From Sulfurisoma sediminicola (GTDB lineage: Bacteria > Pseudomonadota > Gammaproteobacteria > Burkholderiales > Rhodocyclaceae): DNA of 64,000 nucleotides. The notes under the pieces were generated by a model. It did not search any database. It was given only the letters and a program-made list of their open reading frames with translations, and was not told where the DNA came from. Both the position numbers and the translations under genes were made by a program. Numbering within the stretch: position 1 is the first letter of the stretch; each line of letters opens with the position of its first letter. Where the stretch lies: assembly GCF_003865015.1 (NCBI RefSeq), contig NZ_BHVV01000002.1:310001-374000 (forward strand), in the 5' to 3' direction. Shown in pieces: positions 41,073 to 48,036 of this stretch.

Positions 41073-41157
41073 GGCACCCCAAGGGCGCAATCCCGCAAGG
41101 AGCCCTGCACTTCCTTCGGTCGGATTTGCTTCGCGGCGCGCAGGCGCCGCTACGGCG
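41073..41157 (-). repeat. dispersed repeat, long form (copy f), at the cyclase 3' end
   Basis: Reads on the + strand GGCACCCCAAGGG, then ATCCCGCAAGG, then GGATTTGCTTCGCGGC, then ACGGCG, in the same order as the reverse complement of copy h at 61787-61880, with a different spacer. The last codons and stop of the minus-strand cyclase gene lie within it. Confidence 0.65.
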
Positions 41158-42571
41158 CCAAGCTGCCCTGTCTCTCCAGGTTGTGCAGGAAGCGCGCGAG
41201 GTGGCGGTCGGTCTGGGCCGTGTGGTTGATCAGCCAGTCGACCAGCAGCAGCTGAACGCGGAAGGTGAGGTAGAGCGGATGGTATTTGCCGGACTCGATC
41301 GCGCCACGCAGTTTGGTGAAGTTGTCCGCGAACGTCAGGTGCTGGCGCTGGTGCTCCTCGGCGAAGGGGTAGTGATGCTGGCGCATCAGGGCTTCTTCGG
41401 TCTTGAAATCGGAGAGCACGTAGTCGGCGAGAAAGCTCAGGGCCTGCTTGGCCGAAGCCGGCTCCTCGCCGAGAATGGCCTCGGCCAGTTGCGCCATGCG
41501 TTTGAGCAGTTCGCGGTGCTGGGTGTCGATCTCGGCGACGCCGACCGCGTATTCCTCCCTCCAGGCGATCTCGAGGCCGCGGCCGCTGGCCTCGGCCTTG
41601 CCCGAGGCCAGCACTTCATCGCAGCGGGCCAGATAGACCTTCGTCGCCTGGTCGTTGGGGGCGATGGCGGCACAGCGTTTGAACAGCTGTTGGGCGCGCC
41701 AGACGTCGTGCATGTGATAGCAGGCCACGGCCTCCTCGAACATCGGCAGCGTCGTGAGTTTGCCGGCGCGATTCTGCGGCGTGTCGGCGTCGAGCACTTC
41801 GTAGACCGCCTGGGGGTGGCTCTTGCCCTTGACCAGAATGCGGTCGATGAAGCGGATGCGGTAGCGCGAGGGATCCTGCAAGGCATAAAGGGTGTGCTCG
41901 CTGATCAGGAGCGGGGCGGCGTAGTCCTTGGTCACGCCCTCTAGGCGCGAGGCGAGATTGACCGAGTCGCTGATCACCGTGCTGTCCATGCGATTGAGCC
42001 CGCCGACGGTGCCGAGCAGGACCATGCCGGTATTGAGGCCGATGCCGATGTTCACCGGGCTGTAGCCGGCGCGGGCGCGGCCGAGGTTGTAGACCTCGAG
42101 CTGGGCCAGCATGTCGATGGCGGCGGCCAGTGCGTCGTCGGCGCTGCCGGGGAACAACGCCATGATGGCGTCGCCGATGTACTTGTCGATGATGCCTTCG
42201 TTGCGGCCGATCACCGGCTCCATCTCCGACAGGTAGGAGTTGATGAAGCGGAAGTTCTCCTGCGGCGTCATCGTTTCCGACAGCGCGGTGAAGTCGCGGA
42301 TGTCGGAGAAAAGGATGGTCATTTCCTTTTCGACGTGCGTACCGAGTTCGACTTGCATGATGCTCGGCGTGCGCAGCAGCGAGAGGAACTGGCGTGGCAC
42401 GAACTTGCTGTAGGCCGCCTCGGTTCGGGCGAGCGTGGCGCGCGTATGCTCGTGCGCCCGCGTTTCGCGTTCGACGGCTTCGCGCAGGGCATCCAACTCG
42501 GCTTCTTGCAGCGATTTCTGCGGTTGGGCGAGCGATTGGGGCCCGGTCTCCGTGGGTTGGGTTTCGGCCAT
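41150..42571 (-). CDS. class III nucleotidyl cyclase fused to a hemerythrin domain
   Basis: 473 aa from ATG 42571. A coiled coil (about 20-55) and the FVPRQFL motif lead to a cyclase catalytic domain (about 80-255). It has both metal Asp (FSDIRDF, YIGDAIM) and the adenine-type specificity pair Lys in IIDKYIGD and Asp in SDSVNLASRLEG, so adenylate cyclase is predicted. After a linker, a hemerythrin domain (about 335-465) has IDTQHREL, EEHQRQHLTF and LINHTAQTD. The His normally found before FxxEE is Asp (about D388, in LSDFKTEEALM). This predicts an oxygen- or redox-sensing cyclase. The stop codon falls inside a repeat element. Confidence 0.88.
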   Translation of the reverse strand: MAETQPTETGPQSLAQPQKSLQEAELDALREAVERETRAHEHTRATLARTEAAYSKFVPRQFLSLLRTPSIMQVELGTHVEKEMTILFSDIRDFTALSETMTPQENFRFINSYLSEMEPVIGRNEGIIDKYIGDAIMALFPGSADDALAAAIDMLAQLEVYNLGRARAGYSPVNIGIGLNTGMVLLGTVGGLNRMDSTVISDSVNLASRLEGVTKDYAAPLLISEHTLYALQDPSRYRIRFIDRILVKGKSHPQAVYEVLDADTPQNRAGKLTTLPMFEEAVACYHMHDVWRAQQLFKRCAAIAPNDQATKVYLARCDEVLASGKAEASGRGLEIAWREEYAVGVAEIDTQHRELLKRMAQLAEAILGEEPASAKQALSFLADYVLSDFKTEEALMRQHHYPFAEEHQRQHLTFADNFTKLRGAIESGKYHPLYLTFRVQLLLVDWLINHTAQTDRHLARFLHNLERQGSLAP

Positions 42572-42676
42572 GCTCTTCAAATATCACAATGCAGCCCGTC
42601 ACGCAATCTTTTGCCGGAATGGAGCGTGCGGCCCCCACTTTTCTTGATCGCGGTCATGGCCGGCGACGCAGCAGTG

Positions 42677-42691
42677 TTGACCTAGGTCATA
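42677..42691. promoter_or_regulatory. FNR/ANR-like box upstream of the cytochrome cluster
   Basis: TTGACCTAGGTCATA with the perfect palindrome TGACCTAGGTCA (42678-42689), close to the TTGAY-N4-RTCAA consensus of FNR/ANR/DNR regulators. A -10-like TATCAA at 42713-42718 (or TAATAT at 42726-42731) places the box near -41 or -55. Confidence 0.55.
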
Positions 42692-42772
42692 ACGCACTGC
42701 ATCAATTTCACATATCAATGCATCCTAATATTTCGGCCTTGTCTTTCACCTTCGATCGAAAGGAAGCGCAAC

Positions 42773-44410
42773 ATGAACGTACGGGGAATCAAGCGTCTGG
42801 CTGCGTGGCCGGCGCTGGCGACCGTGACAATGGCGCTGGTGCTGGGGTGGCCGATCATGGCGGGTGCCGCGGAAGAGAAAAATGAGCCACCGCCGGTGAA
42901 GATGAACACCACGGCCGACCACAGCAAGTTCAAGGAACTGCAGCAGACCTTCAAATCGGGGCCGGAGGTCACCAAGGCCTGCCTGTCCTGCCACACCGAG
43001 GCCGCCAAACAGGTGCATCGCACCAAGCACTGGACCTGGGAGTTCCTCAATCCCGAGAACAACCAGCGCCTCGGCAAGAAGAACGTCCTCAACAACTTCT
43101 GCATCTCGATCTCGCAGAACTATCCCTTCTGCACCTCCTGCCACGTCGGCTACGGCTGGAAGGACAAGGACTTCGACTTCACCTCCGAGGTCAATGTCGA
43201 TTGCCTGGCCTGCCACGACACCACCGGCAACTACAAGAAGGCGGCTGGCAAGGCCGGACATCCGCTGTACGAGCCGCTCGAAACGCCCCCGGGCTCGGGC
43301 AAGTTCACCCAGCCGCCGGACCTGAGCAAGATCGCGCAGAAGGTCGGCAAGACCAGCCGCGACACCTGCGGTTCCTGCCATTTCTTCGGCGGCGGCGGCG
43401 ACGGCGTCAAGCACGGCGACATGGACAGCTCGCTGGCCGCGCCCGACAAGGAACTCGACGTGCATATGGACGCCTCGGGCCTCGACTTCACCTGCGGCAC
43501 CTGCCACAAGACCTCGAGCCACGACGTTCCCGGCAGCCGCTACACGCCGACCGCGATCGACAAGGGCGGCGCGCAGATGCGCGGCAAGGCCGAGGACGCC
43601 AAGCGCAACCCGGCGACCTGCAACTCTTGCCATGGCAACGCGCCGCACAAGAAGCAGGATCGCCTCAACGGCCACGCCACCAAGCTCGCCTGCCAGACCT
43701 GCCATGTGCCGGCGATGGCGCGCGGCGGCGTGCCGACCAAGATGAGTTGGGACTGGTCCACGGCCGGCCAAAGGGACAAGGACGGCAAGCCGATAACCAA
43801 AAAGGATGACAAGAATCACATCATCTACGAGAGCCGCAAGGGCGATTTCGTCCTCGGCGAGAAGGTGAAGCCCGAATATCGCTGGTTCAACGGCAAGGTG
43901 ACCTACACCCTGCTCGGCGACAAGGTCGAGAAGGGCGCAACGCCGGTCGGCATCAACATGATCGGCGGCAGCCCGAACGACGGCAAGTCGCTGATCTGGC
44001 CGATGAAGGTCATGCGCGGCAAGCAGCCGTTCGACCCGGTGAACAAGACGCTGGTGATGCCGCACACGGCGGGCAACGACGACATCGGCTACTGGAAGAA
44101 CCTCAACTGGGAACCGGCCATTGCGGACGGCATGAAGAATGTCGGGGCGCCGTTCTCGGGCAAGGTCGACTTCCTCTCGACCGAAATGTACTGGCCGATC
44201 ACCCACATGGTCGCGCCCAAGGACAAGGCCGTGGCCTGCGCCGAGTGCCATTCGGCCAAGAGCCGCCTCGCGGGCCTGCCCGGCATCTACATGCCGTCCT
44301 ACAGTGCCAGGAGCTGGCTGGACCTGATCGGCTGGCTGCTCGCTGCGGCGACGCTGGCCGGTGTCATCATCCACGGCGCGCTGCGCGTTTTCCTCGGCAG
44401 GAAGGGGTAA
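42773..44410 (+). CDS. octaheme c-type cytochrome, tetrathionate-reductase (OTR) family
   Basis: 545 aa; signal peptide (about 1-33), then eight CxxCH heme motifs at C70, C120, C144, C199, C241, C283, C307 and C489, and a C-terminal helix (about 515-540, WLDLIGWLLAAATLAGVIIHGAL) anchoring it in the membrane. The NFCISISQNYPFCTSCHVGY region is typical of the OTR group. Shewanella OTR reduces tetrathionate, hydroxylamine and nitrite in vitro. The downstream cytochrome b could feed it with quinol electrons. First gene of a cluster with YeeE and rhodanese genes, so a sulfur substrate is favoured. Confidence 0.88.
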   Translation: MNVRGIKRLAAWPALATVTMALVLGWPIMAGAAEEKNEPPPVKMNTTADHSKFKELQQTFKSGPEVTKACLSCHTEAAKQVHRTKHWTWEFLNPENNQRLGKKNVLNNFCISISQNYPFCTSCHVGYGWKDKDFDFTSEVNVDCLACHDTTGNYKKAAGKAGHPLYEPLETPPGSGKFTQPPDLSKIAQKVGKTSRDTCGSCHFFGGGGDGVKHGDMDSSLAAPDKELDVHMDASGLDFTCGTCHKTSSHDVPGSRYTPTAIDKGGAQMRGKAEDAKRNPATCNSCHGNAPHKKQDRLNGHATKLACQTCHVPAMARGGVPTKMSWDWSTAGQRDKDGKPITKKDDKNHIIYESRKGDFVLGEKVKPEYRWFNGKVTYTLLGDKVEKGATPVGINMIGGSPNDGKSLIWPMKVMRGKQPFDPVNKTLVMPHTAGNDDIGYWKNLNWEPAIADGMKNVGAPFSGKVDFLSTEMYWPITHMVAPKDKAVACAECHSAKSRLAGLPGIYMPSYSARSWLDLIGWLLAAATLAGVIIHGALRVFLGRKG

Positions 44411-44414
44411 GAAC

Positions 44415-45053
44415 ATGTCCGCACACGCAATGCAGAAACTCTACGTCTTCAAGATCTTCGAGCGCATCTGGCACTGGTCGCAGGCGGGACTGATCATCTT
44501 CCTGCTCATTACCGGTTTCGAGGTGCACGGCAGCTACGCCAACTTCGGCTTCGAGAAGGCGGTGAATTACCACACCATCGCCGCCTGGTCGCTGGTCGGG
44601 CTGTGGGTGTTCGCAATCTTCTGGCACTTCACCACCGGCGAATGGAAGCAGTACATCCCGACGCTGGCGAAGGTCGATGCCATGGCCAAGTACTACCTGT
44701 TCGGCATCTTCGTCAATGCGCCGCATCCGTTCCGCCTGACCACGCTGAAGAAGCACAACCCGCTGCAGCGGCTGGCCTATCTCGGGGTGATGCTGTTCAT
44801 CGGCCCGCTGATCTGGTTCACCGGCTGGTTCTACATCTTCTTCGACAAGTGGCACGCCTGGGGCTGGGACAAGTACCTGAGCCTGGAATGGGTGGCGTTC
44901 TTCCACACCATCGCCGCGTTCATGATGCTGCTGTTCCTGATCGCCCACGTCTATCTGACCACCACCGGCCACACCCCGCTCGCCCACATCAAGGCCATGA
45001 TCACCGGCTGGGAAGAGGTCGAGGCCGAGGAAACTGCGCCGGTCAAGCACTGA
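44415..45053 (+). CDS. membrane cytochrome b (quinol-linked, b561/thiosulfate-reductase type)
   Basis: 212 aa from ATG 44415 (MSAHAMQKLYVFK), 4 bases after the octaheme gene. Four helices carry candidate heme-ligand histidines: ERIWHWSQAGLIIFLLITGF, VNYHTIAAWSLVGLWVFAIFWHF, LAYLGVMLFIGPLIWFTGWF and FFHTIAAFMMLLFLIAHVYLTTTGH. Such di-heme subunits oxidise quinol (or reduce quinone) for periplasmic cytochromes. This is the probable membrane anchor and electron entry of the octaheme complex. Confidence 0.87.
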   Translation: MSAHAMQKLYVFKIFERIWHWSQAGLIIFLLITGFEVHGSYANFGFEKAVNYHTIAAWSLVGLWVFAIFWHFTTGEWKQYIPTLAKVDAMAKYYLFGIFVNAPHPFRLTTLKKHNPLQRLAYLGVMLFIGPLIWFTGWFYIFFDKWHAWGWDKYLSLEWVAFFHTIAAFMMLLFLIAHVYLTTTGHTPLAHIKAMITGWEEVEAEETAPVKH

Positions 45054-45100
45054 ATGCAATTGCAACAATCAATCCAGCTTTGCCCAAGAGGAGAATCAAT

Positions 45101-45493
45101 ATGACACGCAAGTTTTCGATGACCGTGCTGGCGGCGCTGCTCGGCGCCACCGCGATGACCAGTGCCCTGGCCTATGACGCCGACTGGAAGCGCGGCCGCG
45201 TCTATTACCGCCAGGTGTGCACCAGTTGCCACATGGCGCAGGCGAACAAGCAGTTCGGCCCCAACGAGCGCACCAAGGCCGACTGGACCGCCTACCTCAG
45301 CGCGGACAAGCACAACAAGGGCAAGGACACGATCAAGCAGTATTACAGCAAGCAGTACCGCGCCAGCATCAAGGCCAGCAACAAGGCGGCCGAGAAGTTC
45401 GCCGATACGCCCGATCAGGAGCTGATGGACGACGTCAAGGCCTTCCTGATCAAGAGCGCCAAGGACGGCGACTCCCCGGCCAGCTGCAGCTGA
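45101..45493 (+). CDS. small monoheme cytochrome c
   Basis: 130 aa with signal peptide (to about ALA-YD) and a single CTSCH heme motif near the mature N-terminus (RVYYRQVCTSCHMAQANKQF). The remaining 90 residues are Lys-rich helices (DKHNKGKDTIKQYYSKQYRAS, DQELMDDVKAFLIK). AAGAGGAG ribosome-binding site. Probably a soluble electron carrier working with the octaheme protein. The C-terminus ends in a Cys (PASCS). Confidence 0.85.
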   Translation: MTRKFSMTVLAALLGATAMTSALAYDADWKRGRVYYRQVCTSCHMAQANKQFGPNERTKADWTAYLSADKHNKGKDTIKQYYSKQYRASIKASNKAAEKFADTPDQELMDDVKAFLIKSAKDGDSPASCS

Positions 45494-45507
45494 TCCGCCG
45501 AACCATC

Positions 45508-45545
45508 CCCCGCACCCCTCTGTCCGAACGAGGGGGCGGGTTCGT
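45508..45545 (+). terminator. hairpin between cytochrome c and YeeE genes
   Basis: CCCGC-a-CCCCTC pairs with GAGGGG-GCGGG and is followed by TTCGTTGTG. An imperfect intrinsic terminator, perhaps an attenuator that lowers expression of the two distal genes relative to the cytochromes. Confidence 0.45.
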
Positions 45546-45567
45546 TGTGTGACAAGGAGAGCAATTC

Positions 45568-46797
45568 ATGTCTGAAGGCGCATCCTGGCGGGCCGGCTTC
45601 AAGGCCGACTACGAAAGCATACTTGTCGAACCCTGGGCGCCGCACATCGGTGCCATTCTGATGGTGATGATCATCCTGCTGCTGATGGTCAACGGCCTGT
45701 TCTGGGGCGTCTTCGGCGGGCTCAAGCTCTGGGGCGACTGGTTCAACAGCAGCATTGGCCTCGGCCCCCTGCTCGGCATCAAGAGCGACCTCGACGGCCC
45801 GCTGATGCACCGCATGTCGCTGATGAACATCACCCTGATCGTCGGCGCCTTCGCCGCGGCGATGATCTCGCGCCAGTTCTCGATCTTCCGCGCACCGAAG
45901 CTCGAGTACATCTGGGGTGCCGCGGGCGGCACGCTGATGGGCGTTGGCGCCACGCTGTCCGGCGGCTGCACCACCGGCGGCTTTTACACCCCGGCGCTGC
46001 ATTCCTCGCCGGCGGGCTGGGTGATGGCGGCGGGCCTGATCATCGGCGCCGTGATCGGCCTCAAGCTGCTGATGTGGACTCTCGAAAATATCGAGTGGGG
46101 CATGCAGGCGCCCGGCGCCATCGAGCCGCCGGGGCGCGCGATCCATCCCTGGATCGGCGTGGCGCTCATCGCCATCATCATCGCGTGGACCCTGAACTGG
46201 GCGACGAGCGGCGACGAAAAACTGGTCGGGCGTGCCCTCATCGTCATCGCCGGCTTCCTCATGGGCTTCGTCATGCACCGCTCGCGCCTCTGTTTCGCCC
46301 GCTGCTTCCGCGAGCCTTTCATGACCGCCGAGGGCGACATGACCAAGGCCATCATCGTTTCGCTGGCGATCGGCATTCCCGCAGCGGCGCTGCTGTTCGA
46401 GAAGAAGCTGATCGACCCCTACCTGGCGATCCCGCCGACCTTCTGGCTCGGCTCCCTGCTCGGCGGCCTCATCTTCGGCCTCGGCATGGTCTTCGCCGGC
46501 GGCTGCGCCTCGGGCGCGCTGTGGCGTGCCGGCGAGGGCCACCTCAAGCTGTGGGTGGCGGTGTTCTTCTTCGCCTGGGGCGGCTCGACCTTTTCGGGGA
46601 TCCTGCACCACTGGGACGTGATGACGCGCGACGTCAACCTCGAGAGCATCGAATTCACCAAGGTCGGCATCCAGACCTACCTGCCGGATATGGTCGGCGG
46701 CTGGGGCTGGGCGCTGTCGATCAGCCTGGGCATCCTGGCGATTTGGTACGCCTGGGTGCGCTACAACGAATCCACCGAGAAATTCACGGTTGTCTAA
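45568..46797 (+). CDS. YeeE/YedE-family sulfur-compound transporter
   Basis: 409 aa membrane protein. Two homologous halves each carry the family's GGC motif: GVGATLSGGCTTGGFYTPAL (first half) and GLGMVFAGGCASGALWRAGE (second half), with a third Cys-containing HRSRLCFARCF helix between. In thiosulfate importer TsuA and relatives, these cysteines pass sulfur-containing ions across the membrane. Between a cytochrome c and exported rhodaneses, it probably moves thiosulfate or sulfane sulfur. No fused TusA domain is present. Confidence 0.87.
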   Translation: MSEGASWRAGFKADYESILVEPWAPHIGAILMVMIILLLMVNGLFWGVFGGLKLWGDWFNSSIGLGPLLGIKSDLDGPLMHRMSLMNITLIVGAFAAAMISRQFSIFRAPKLEYIWGAAGGTLMGVGATLSGGCTTGGFYTPALHSSPAGWVMAAGLIIGAVIGLKLLMWTLENIEWGMQAPGAIEPPGRAIHPWIGVALIAIIIAWTLNWATSGDEKLVGRALIVIAGFLMGFVMHRSRLCFARCFREPFMTAEGDMTKAIIVSLAIGIPAAALLFEKKLIDPYLAIPPTFWLGSLLGGLIFGLGMVFAGGCASGALWRAGEGHLKLWVAVFFFAWGGSTFSGILHHWDVMTRDVNLESIEFTKVGIQTYLPDMVGGWGWALSISLGILAIWYAWVRYNESTEKFTVV

Positions 46798-46812
46798 CGA
46801 AGGAGACTCTCC

Positions 46813-47964
46813 ATGAATATCAAGCTCAAGAGCATAGCGCTGGCCGTCGCGCTGGCATTGCCCGTCGCCTTGCCGGCGGCCCTGCTGAGCGAGCCGGTCC
46901 GGGCGCAGCAGGACGTGAAGAAGGACGGCTGGTATCGCCATATCGTCGATATCGACTTCGTCAAGCCCTATGTCGACATCCCGCCCAAGCCCGGCGTCAT
47001 GCTGATCGATTCGCGTCCGGCGGCGCGGCAGTATGACCCGGGCCACATCCCCGGGGCAATCAACATTCCCGACAGCCAGTTCGACAAGCTCGCCGACAAG
47101 CTGCCCGCCGACAAGGCCACGCTGCTGATCTTCTATTGCGGCGGCTTCGAGTGCATGCTGAGCCACCAGTCGGCCTTCAAGGCCGAGAAGCTGGGCTATA
47201 CCAACATCCGCGTCTATTCCGCGGGCAGCCCCGACTGGGCCAAGAACGGCACCGGGCAGTCGGTTTCCGCCGCCTATATCAAGAAGCTGCAGGCCGACAA
47301 GGCGCCGCACATGCTGATCGATGCGCGGCCGAAGCGTACCGCCGACAAGGGCATGATCCCCGGCGCGGTCAATATTTCCGAGAGCGAATTCGACAAGAAT
47401 GTCGACAAGCTGTCGGCCGACAAGGCGACGCCCTTGATCATTTATTGCGGTGGCCTGGAGTGCGTGCTTTCCGACAAGGTCGCGGCCAAGGCCCGCGCGC
47501 TGGGCTACACGGACGTCAAGACCTATCCCGAAGGCTATCCGGAATGGGAGAAGCTGTTCGGTGCGGCACCCGCGGCGGCTCCGGCCGGCGCGGCCGCTCC
47601 GGCGGCGGCGCCCAAGGCGGCAGCGCTCGAGCCCGGCAAGGAGAAGGGCTCGGTCACCGTCGCTTCGTTCGAGAAGGTGCTCAAGGAGCAGCCCGACGCG
47701 ATCAACCTCGTCGACGTGCGGGACGCCAAGGAGTTCGCCGGCGGGACGATCAAGGGTGCGAAGAACATCCCGATGAATGCGCTGGAAAAGGCGATCGACC
47801 AGCTGCCCAAGGACAAGCCGACGGTCTTCATCTGCGGTACCGGTGCCCGCTCCGGCGAGGCCTACGACACGGTCAAGCTGGTGAAGGCGGATCTGCCGGT
47901 GTATTTCATCGACGCCACCATCAAGTTCCTCGGCGACGGCAAGTTCGAGATCAAGCAGAAGTAA
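46813..47964 (+). CDS. exported triple-rhodanese sulfurtransferase
   Basis: 383 aa with signal peptide (about 1-31). Three rhodanese domains with active-site Cys at about C109 (FYCGGFEC), C212 (IYCGGLEC) and C341 (FICGTGARSG). Domains 1 and 2 share the unusual CGGxEC loop, so they look like an internal duplication. An Ala/Pro-rich linker (about 250-272) separates domain 3, whose loop differs. All three Cys are retained, so it could carry persulfide sulfur in the periplasm. It is the last gene of the octaheme cluster and is followed by two hairpins. Confidence 0.88.
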   Translation: MNIKLKSIALAVALALPVALPAALLSEPVRAQQDVKKDGWYRHIVDIDFVKPYVDIPPKPGVMLIDSRPAARQYDPGHIPGAINIPDSQFDKLADKLPADKATLLIFYCGGFECMLSHQSAFKAEKLGYTNIRVYSAGSPDWAKNGTGQSVSAAYIKKLQADKAPHMLIDARPKRTADKGMIPGAVNISESEFDKNVDKLSADKATPLIIYCGGLECVLSDKVAAKARALGYTDVKTYPEGYPEWEKLFGAAPAAAPAGAAAPAAAPKAAALEPGKEKGSVTVASFEKVLKEQPDAINLVDVRDAKEFAGGTIKGAKNIPMNALEKAIDQLPKDKPTVFICGTGARSGEAYDTVKLVKADLPVYFIDATIKFLGDGKFEIKQK

Positions 47965-47982: not shown

Positions 47983-48036
47983 CGGCGATACGCATCGCCG
48001 CCGCGACGAGGGGCTGCGGCCCCTCTTGTCGTTTAT
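47983..48036 (+). terminator. double hairpin ending the sulfur/cytochrome cluster
   Basis: CGGCGAT-ACGC-ATCGCCG (47983-48000) and GAGGGGC with GCCCCTC (48008-48025) followed by TTGTCGTTTAT. The second fits a weak intrinsic terminator. It separates the cluster from the DUF485/ActP pair. Confidence 0.6.

Follow-up and report, generated by a model that had tools for sequence, protein, structure and literature searches.

The best described relative of the enzyme analysed here is the octaheme tetrathionate reductase (OTR) of Shewanella (SO_4144, PDB 1SP3; family TIGR04315). This enzyme is soluble, interacts with a small tetraheme cytochrome and, when purified, reduces tetrathionate, nitrite and hydroxylamine (PMC4484225). 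Its catalytic heme is ligated by a lysine, and its hemes are reported to be similar to those of MmcA, which range from -100 to -450 mV (PMC11024163). Two other heme enzymes, SoxAX and TsdA, are proposed to share their first step, the oxidative conjugation of thiosulfate to an active-site cysteine, after which the -SSO3 group is passed to the SoxYZ cysteine by SoxAX and to a second thiosulfate by TsdA (PMC6879331). A stretch of 64,000 nucleotides of the betaproteobacterium Sulfurisoma sediminicola (contig NZ_BHVV01000002.1, positions 310,001 to 374,000 of the forward strand; hereafter the window) encodes an OTR as the first gene of an operon with a cytochrome b (cytb), a cytochrome c (cytc), a YeeE-type transporter and a triple rhodanese (Rhd3). 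The reading that is given an even chance here is that OTR and cytb form a quinone-linked enzyme which loads sulfur on, or unloads it from, a Cys-tipped carrier arm in a manner comparable with SoxAX and SoxYZ, while Rhd3 and YeeE move sulfane sulfur inward. The genes and the key codons are as follows.

42773-44410, + strand: OTR-family octaheme c-type cytochrome (TIGR04315, PDB 1SP3, eight CXXCH motifs)
43100-43102, + strand: codon of OTR Cys110, non-heme, equivalent to Cys64 of 1SP3 by alignment
43409-43411, + strand: codon of OTR Lys213, equivalent by alignment to Lys153 of 1SP3, the conserved ligand of the catalytic heme
44415-45053, + strand: b561/Ni_hydr_CYTB-type cytochrome b (PF01292), putative membrane quinone partner of OTR
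45101-45493, + strand: exported monoheme cytochrome c (heme motif CTSCH) with a penultimate Cys, proposed sulfur-carrier arm
45485-45487, + strand: codon of cytc Cys129, the penultimate residue (...PASC-S-stop)
45568-46797, + strand: YeeE/YedE-type sulfur transporter (PF04143)
46813-47964, + strand: exported triple rhodanese (three PF00581 domains)

The five genes are co-directional with gaps of 4, 47, 74 and 15 bp, lie ahead of a terminator-like hairpin and constitute one operon. A first-pass annotation, made from the sequence of this DNA, had listed these five genes, and its descriptions of an octaheme protein with its own C-terminal membrane anchor and of a quinol-type cytochrome b agree with the present results. 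The OTR has 545 aa, a signal peptide, eight CXXCH motifs and a C-terminal transmembrane helix at about 515-540. It scored 632 bits against TIGR04315 (curated cut-off 375) and aligned with 1SP3 over the mature protein (E=9e-113), with Cys64, Asp150 and Lys153 of the Shewanella enzyme conserved. Cys110, the counterpart of Cys64, which we take to lie at the catalytic heme, and Lys213, the predicted ligand of that heme, were invariant in an alignment of 122 OTRs. In contrast to the soluble Shewanella protein, the window OTR is membrane-anchored, has a cytochrome b partner and is encoded with sulfur-transfer genes and a Cys-tailed partner. The cytb matched PF01292 with 80 bits. OTR and cytb were adjacent almost without exception in 80 related loci, the pair also holds across the wider class, and at one locus (L162, 5481-9769) the two are joined in a natural fusion of 736 aa located between a triple rhodanese and SoxY-SoxZ. 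In plasmid records the OTR and cytb pair was found only in Paracoccus and Photobacterium, without the other module genes, and no Rhd3 was found there.

The carrier assignment starts from the end of cytc. The protein contains one CXXCH, its Pfam match is weak and to cytochrome c families only, and Cys129 is its sole non-heme cysteine. This penultimate residue and His71 are invariant in the 53 aligned cytc sequences. The AF2 model gave a mean pLDDT of 93, falling to about 60 in the last residues, as expected of a flexible tail; cytc is thus predicted to resemble SoxY in holding a conserved cysteine on a flexible C-terminal arm. No SoxY domain (PF13501) was detected in the window cytc, and Foldseek with its model returned no significant fold match. 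Variation was likewise absent from the alignments at OTR Cys110 (122/122), at five cysteines of Rhd3 (47/47) and at three of YeeE (33/33). The terminal cysteine of cytc had been overlooked in the first-pass annotation, as had a second OTR locus and a second FNR-like box.

The same feature was found in proteins of other families at OTR loci. DUF302 proteins linked to OTR ended in Cys after a Gly-rich tail in all 20 cases, against none of the 25 DUF302 proteins from the same set of relatives which are not beside OTR. A third group of loci encodes a 107-aa exported protein that ends in GC (19/19 complete copies), as a rule behind a DUF3373 porin. In the fourth arrangement, that of the fusion locus, Rhd3, OTR::cytb, SoxY (ending GGCG) and SoxZ follow one another in one run. 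In lucinid symbionts, too, OTR is associated with a Cys-arm carrier, as soxY-S3 and soxZ are independently described there next to otr (PMC11237559); the accessible part of that paper notes the neighbourhood and does not draw in the other C-terminal-Cys proteins or the betaproteobacterial module. Homologue searches placed at least one Cys-ended partner (cytc, DUF302, 107-aa or SoxYZ) in 64 of the 81 OTR loci with full flanks, the remaining 17 being 16 loci of an outer clade and L155. In a mechanical count, 57 of 224 exported-like small open reading frames (ORFs) near OTR had Cys as last or penultimate residue, against 3 of 95 farther away (p=2.6e-7), although antisense ORFs concealed many true carriers from this count. 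A monoheme cytochrome c of another type, which ends in ...RFCN and is encoded immediately upstream of an OTR of the outer clade (L134, 6288-6752), was left uncounted; it has no homologue in the other loci and its ending is possibly due to chance. Four unrelated families with the same terminal Cys next to one enzyme are difficult to account for if OTR does not meet that cysteine. The recurrence of these partners indicates that OTR may work on arm-held sulfur as in the Sox pathway, and suggests that its substrate is sulfur on a protein arm rather than mainly free tetrathionate. It is put at roughly equal probability either way that OTR-cytb is a quinone-coupled counterpart of SoxAX whose substrate is sulfur on the terminal Cys of the carrier, with at least four unrelated carrier types recruited independently. 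The DUF3373 outer-membrane-porin-like protein was seen downstream of OTR and cytb at L048 (5549-7348) and at 16 other OTR loci, mostly without YeeE, and may bring substrate in or out.

In the mechanism proposed from these features, OTR and cytb would form one membrane complex exchanging electrons with the quinone pool. The Lys-ligated catalytic heme and the invariant Cys would make or cleave the S-S bond that joins the C-terminal Cys of the carrier, which in the window operon would be Cys129 of cytc, to a small sulfur compound. Thiosulfate, sulfide and sulfane sulfur are the likeliest such compounds. Rhd3 would then take sulfane sulfur off the arm, YeeE would move it across the membrane and the reverse Dsr pathway would oxidize it. 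The net direction would most likely be oxidative, from sulfur to quinone, under FNR/DNR-type control and in use with nitrate or nitrite. OTR would thereby be a multiheme equivalent of SoxAX and TsdA with the carrier arm as second substrate, and its reduction of tetrathionate would be the small-molecule version of the arm reaction. The proposed likeness to SoxAX/SoxYZ lies in a heme enzyme with an active-site Cys and a carrier Cys on a flexible C-terminal arm, with SoxYZ itself in the place of the carrier at the fusion locus. However, OTR is not homologous to SoxAX, nor are cytc, DUF302 and the 107-aa protein homologous to SoxY, and the electrons of OTR are proposed to pass to quinone via cytb whereas those of SoxAX pass to a soluble cytochrome c. 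TsdA is similarly a c-type heme enzyme with an essential active-site Cys that interconverts thiosulfate and tetrathionate (PMC6879331), but it is a di-heme protein of an unrelated family and has no quinone partner.

The gene-neighbourhood survey that the first-pass annotation had recommended was carried out, and it revealed OTR and cytb as a near-universal pair and cytc, Rhd3 and YeeE as a recurrent module. Cytc, Rhd3 and often YeeE adjoin OTR and cytb in more than half of the 80 related loci, in co-directional or divergent orientation, and the gene set was seen in dozens of genomes, among them that of Aromatoleum tolulyticum (L038), a cultured relative. The window host is close to a Sulfurisoma metagenome-assembled genome (locus L004, 87% in OTR). 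Among 250 genomes of the order, 23 had an OTR over cut-off; Rhd3 and cytc occurred in 8 genomes each, all within these 23 (Fisher p=1.5e-9, kinship ignored). In the tree of the 122 OTRs the module was largely gathered in a single big clade (44 of 49 rows; the others include several cut contigs), and its distribution required 13 changes compared to 40.6 in shuffles, again with kinship ignored. SoxB was present in all 23 OTR genomes and DsrA over cut-off in 18, with split copies in 2 more. Three loci (L047, L051 and L009) have SoxY genes and additional genes for YeeE/YedE or sulfate permease within a few kb of the module, which adds to its sulfur context.

The upstream region was also analysed, and the following features delimit the operon.

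42644-42657, + strand: FNR/DNR-like box 1, TTGATCGCGGTCAT, found by pattern scan
42677-42690, + strand: FNR/DNR-like box 2, TTGACCTAGGTCAT, found by pattern scan
48008-48025, + strand: terminator-like stem-loop after Rhd3, the last operon gene, found by consensus scan

The box at 42677 had been reported in the first-pass annotation as FNR/ANR-like and the one at 42644 is additional. A similar pair precedes OTR in the relative L007, and boxes of the strict pattern TTGAY-N4-RTCAW were kept in both nearest relatives, L004 and L007. Upstream of OTR genes, 22 strict boxes were counted in 26.6 kb where 2.4 were expected from other intergenic DNA; at the heads of OTR and module operons, 42 sites were counted in 43 kb (0.98/kb) against 2 in 22.5 kb of other intergenic DNA (0.09/kb), an enrichment of about 10- to 11-fold. 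A strict site was present in 34 of the 122 OTR loci, most loci being without one, which indicates that control by the box is common but not universal by the strict pattern. FNR/DNR-type control of the operon is supported by these motif counts, and the enrichment, along with a gene set that recurs in dozens of genomes, argues that the operon is more than a chance assembly. The promoter scan of the operon region found no sigma-70 promoter. The divergent neighbour sharing the intergenic region with the boxes (41150-42580, - strand) encodes an adenylate/guanylate cyclase domain fused to bacteriohemerythrin and is possibly an oxygen or NO sensor.

Betaproteobacteria as a rule use ubiquinone. The low-potential OTR-type hemes, ubiquinone and the Sox and reverse Dsr genes of the host together favour an electron flow from sulfur to quinone, and the first two make a quinol-driven reduction awkward; the reductive direction, i.e. 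respiration in the reductive sense, is possible. In that case free tetrathionate, or some other sulfur oxyanion, would be reduced anaerobically: quinol would donate electrons through cytb to OTR, thiosulfate would go to Rhd3 and YeeE, and cytc would be only an electron carrier. This explanation, the closest to the first-pass annotation, is considered rather unlikely. It accounts for the family name and the assays on the purified Shewanella enzyme, which acts on tetrathionate, nitrite and hydroxylamine (PMC4484225), and for the rise of otr transcription with tetrathionate in a marine acidobacterium in sediment microcosms (PMC8528874). The FNR-like boxes are in accordance with it, and so is the resemblance of cytb to the thiosulfate reductase cytochrome b (PhsC, NF011582), whose score of 118.5 bits is below the equivalog cut-off of 204. 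It leaves unexplained the invariant C-terminal Cys of four unrelated partners, and SoxB in all surveyed OTR genomes of the order and DsrA in most of them speak against it. The assay and induction data also weigh against the carrier-arm reaction, which is proposed from sequence. Further points against it are the outer-clade OTRs, which on present evidence have no Cys-ended partner at 16 loci with full flanks; the co-occurrence tests, which ignore phylogeny; and the direction, which rests on host gene content and on heme potentials measured on a homologue. The sulfur-respiration module of the first-pass annotation is supported insofar as the genes form a coherent unit for sulfur, with a cytochrome b of the quinone type and FNR-type boxes, but its reduction or disproportionation of a free oxyanion stays a proposal. 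Given the Sox and reverse Dsr genes, the low-potential hemes and the C-terminal-Cys partners, it is no less likely that arm-bound sulfur is oxidized or transferred.

The terminal Cys could also be a redox thiol, a metal ligand or an attachment point and not a sulfur carrier. In this improbable case the cysteines would serve as redox or docking thiols, for example in a mixed disulfide holding the partner at OTR or as a heme ligand, and the partners would deliver electrons rather than sulfur. The cysteines of cytc, two for the heme and Cys129, make an internal disulfide impossible, and the invariant His71 could be the distal heme ligand, both of which suit such a role. However, no heme motif is present in those DUF302 and 107-aa partners that were inspected at sequence level; at the fusion locus the equivalent place is taken by SoxY, which is known to carry sulfur; and Rhd3 and YeeE are sulfur-transfer proteins. 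Reduction or detoxification of nitrite or hydroxylamine by OTR, with the sulfur genes as bystanders, is regarded as very improbable. The Shewanella activities on these compounds (PMC4484225) and the FNR/DNR-like boxes agree with it, and the window genome lacks NrfA; yet the same genome has three cd1-type nitrite reductase matches, so nitrite reduction is already provided for, the sulfur proteins YeeE and Rhd3 as well as cytc have conserved cysteines and are linked to OTR, and nitrogen chemistry has no need of the invariant non-heme Cys. Sulfur rather than nitrogen is indicated by the invariant cysteines of OTR, cytc, YeeE and Rhd3 and by the SoxB and DsrA counts. A sulfur disproportionation module, in which OTR, Rhd3 and YeeE share reductive and oxidative branches, is the most improbable reading. 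In its favour, the disproportionator Desulfurivibrio dismutans has a triple rhodanese in its Psr operon (PMC12142623), and YTD clusters of disproportionators include YedE-type genes (PMC8528874). Against it, the hosts have Sox and, as a rule, DsrA, the window host has cd1 nitrite reductase genes, and no DsrE or TusA adjoins the window genes.

The window genome has a second OTR and cytb locus (G000:C8:354844-356226; L003, 9671-11978), whose OTR belongs to another clade. This OTR lies 1.1 kb from an upstream DUF302 protein with a Gly-rich tail and terminal Cys, ending ...GGGGGGGGGGSGC. The cytb genes of the two loci are identical at 599 of 600 nt while the OTRs are 74.5% identical, so that two OTR paralogues with different carriers share a near-identical cytb. 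Four genomes with two OTR loci showed this pattern, with 99.2-99.8% nt identity in cytb (over 180 bases of a cut contig in one of them) and 73-77% in OTR; two other two-copy genomes showed no such near-identity of cytb. The contrast points to gene conversion that affects cytb alone and to a single membrane partner used by both paralogues. In L005 and L146 the sulfur module is flanked or shared by the two OTR paralogues within a single neighbourhood, which supports a joint function of the paralogues.

OTR, rhodanese and YeeE are known families and the composition of the operon is recurrent; the carrier-arm pattern is the new element. The first-pass annotation knew of no pathway with exactly this composition, and none was found in the searchable open-access literature either. 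Should carrier-bound sulfur prove to be what most proteobacterial OTRs act on, together with a quinone partner, OTR annotations would need revision and sulfur electrons would have, besides Sqr, a new way into the quinone pool. Since it points to individual cysteines of small soluble proteins, the prediction lends itself to a sharp test.

The handling of sulfane sulfur by YeeE and Rhd3, suggested in the first-pass annotation, gains support from their linkage to OTR and from their conserved cysteines. YeeE matched PF04143 with 150 bits. Its Cys134, Cys242 and Cys313 align with Cys293, Cys22 and Cys91 of the thiosulfate transporter TsuA (6LEO), which we take to matter for transport, and are the residues invariant in all YeeE sequences compared. 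The two proteins share this domain and the three pathway cysteines; in contrast to TsuA, the window YeeE has its halves swapped (a circular permutation that retains all three cysteines), scores 99.8 bits where the TsuA equivalog requires 400, and has no TusA-like partner adjoining. Rhd3 has a hydrophobic signal-like N-terminus and three PF00581 domains, each with a Cys in the catalytic loop (C109, C212 and C341), and C114 and C217 in addition, the first-pass annotation having noted a Cys in all domains; the AF2 model resolved three domains with a pLDDT of 90. The Psr operon of Desulfurivibrio dismutans likewise combines an exported three-domain rhodanese with a periplasmic sulfur enzyme linked to quinone, that enzyme being the molybdenum PsrABC (PMC12142623) whereas the window enzyme is an octaheme cytochrome. 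The Rhd3 motif is CxxxxC in domains 1 and 2 and CxxGxRS in domain 3. The best NCBIfam match of Rhd3 by E-value is the selenoprotein TsoB, listed with UxxxxU; together with the CxxxxC in the active-site loop of Rhd3, this suggests that the rhodanese subfamily has a redox-active pair there.

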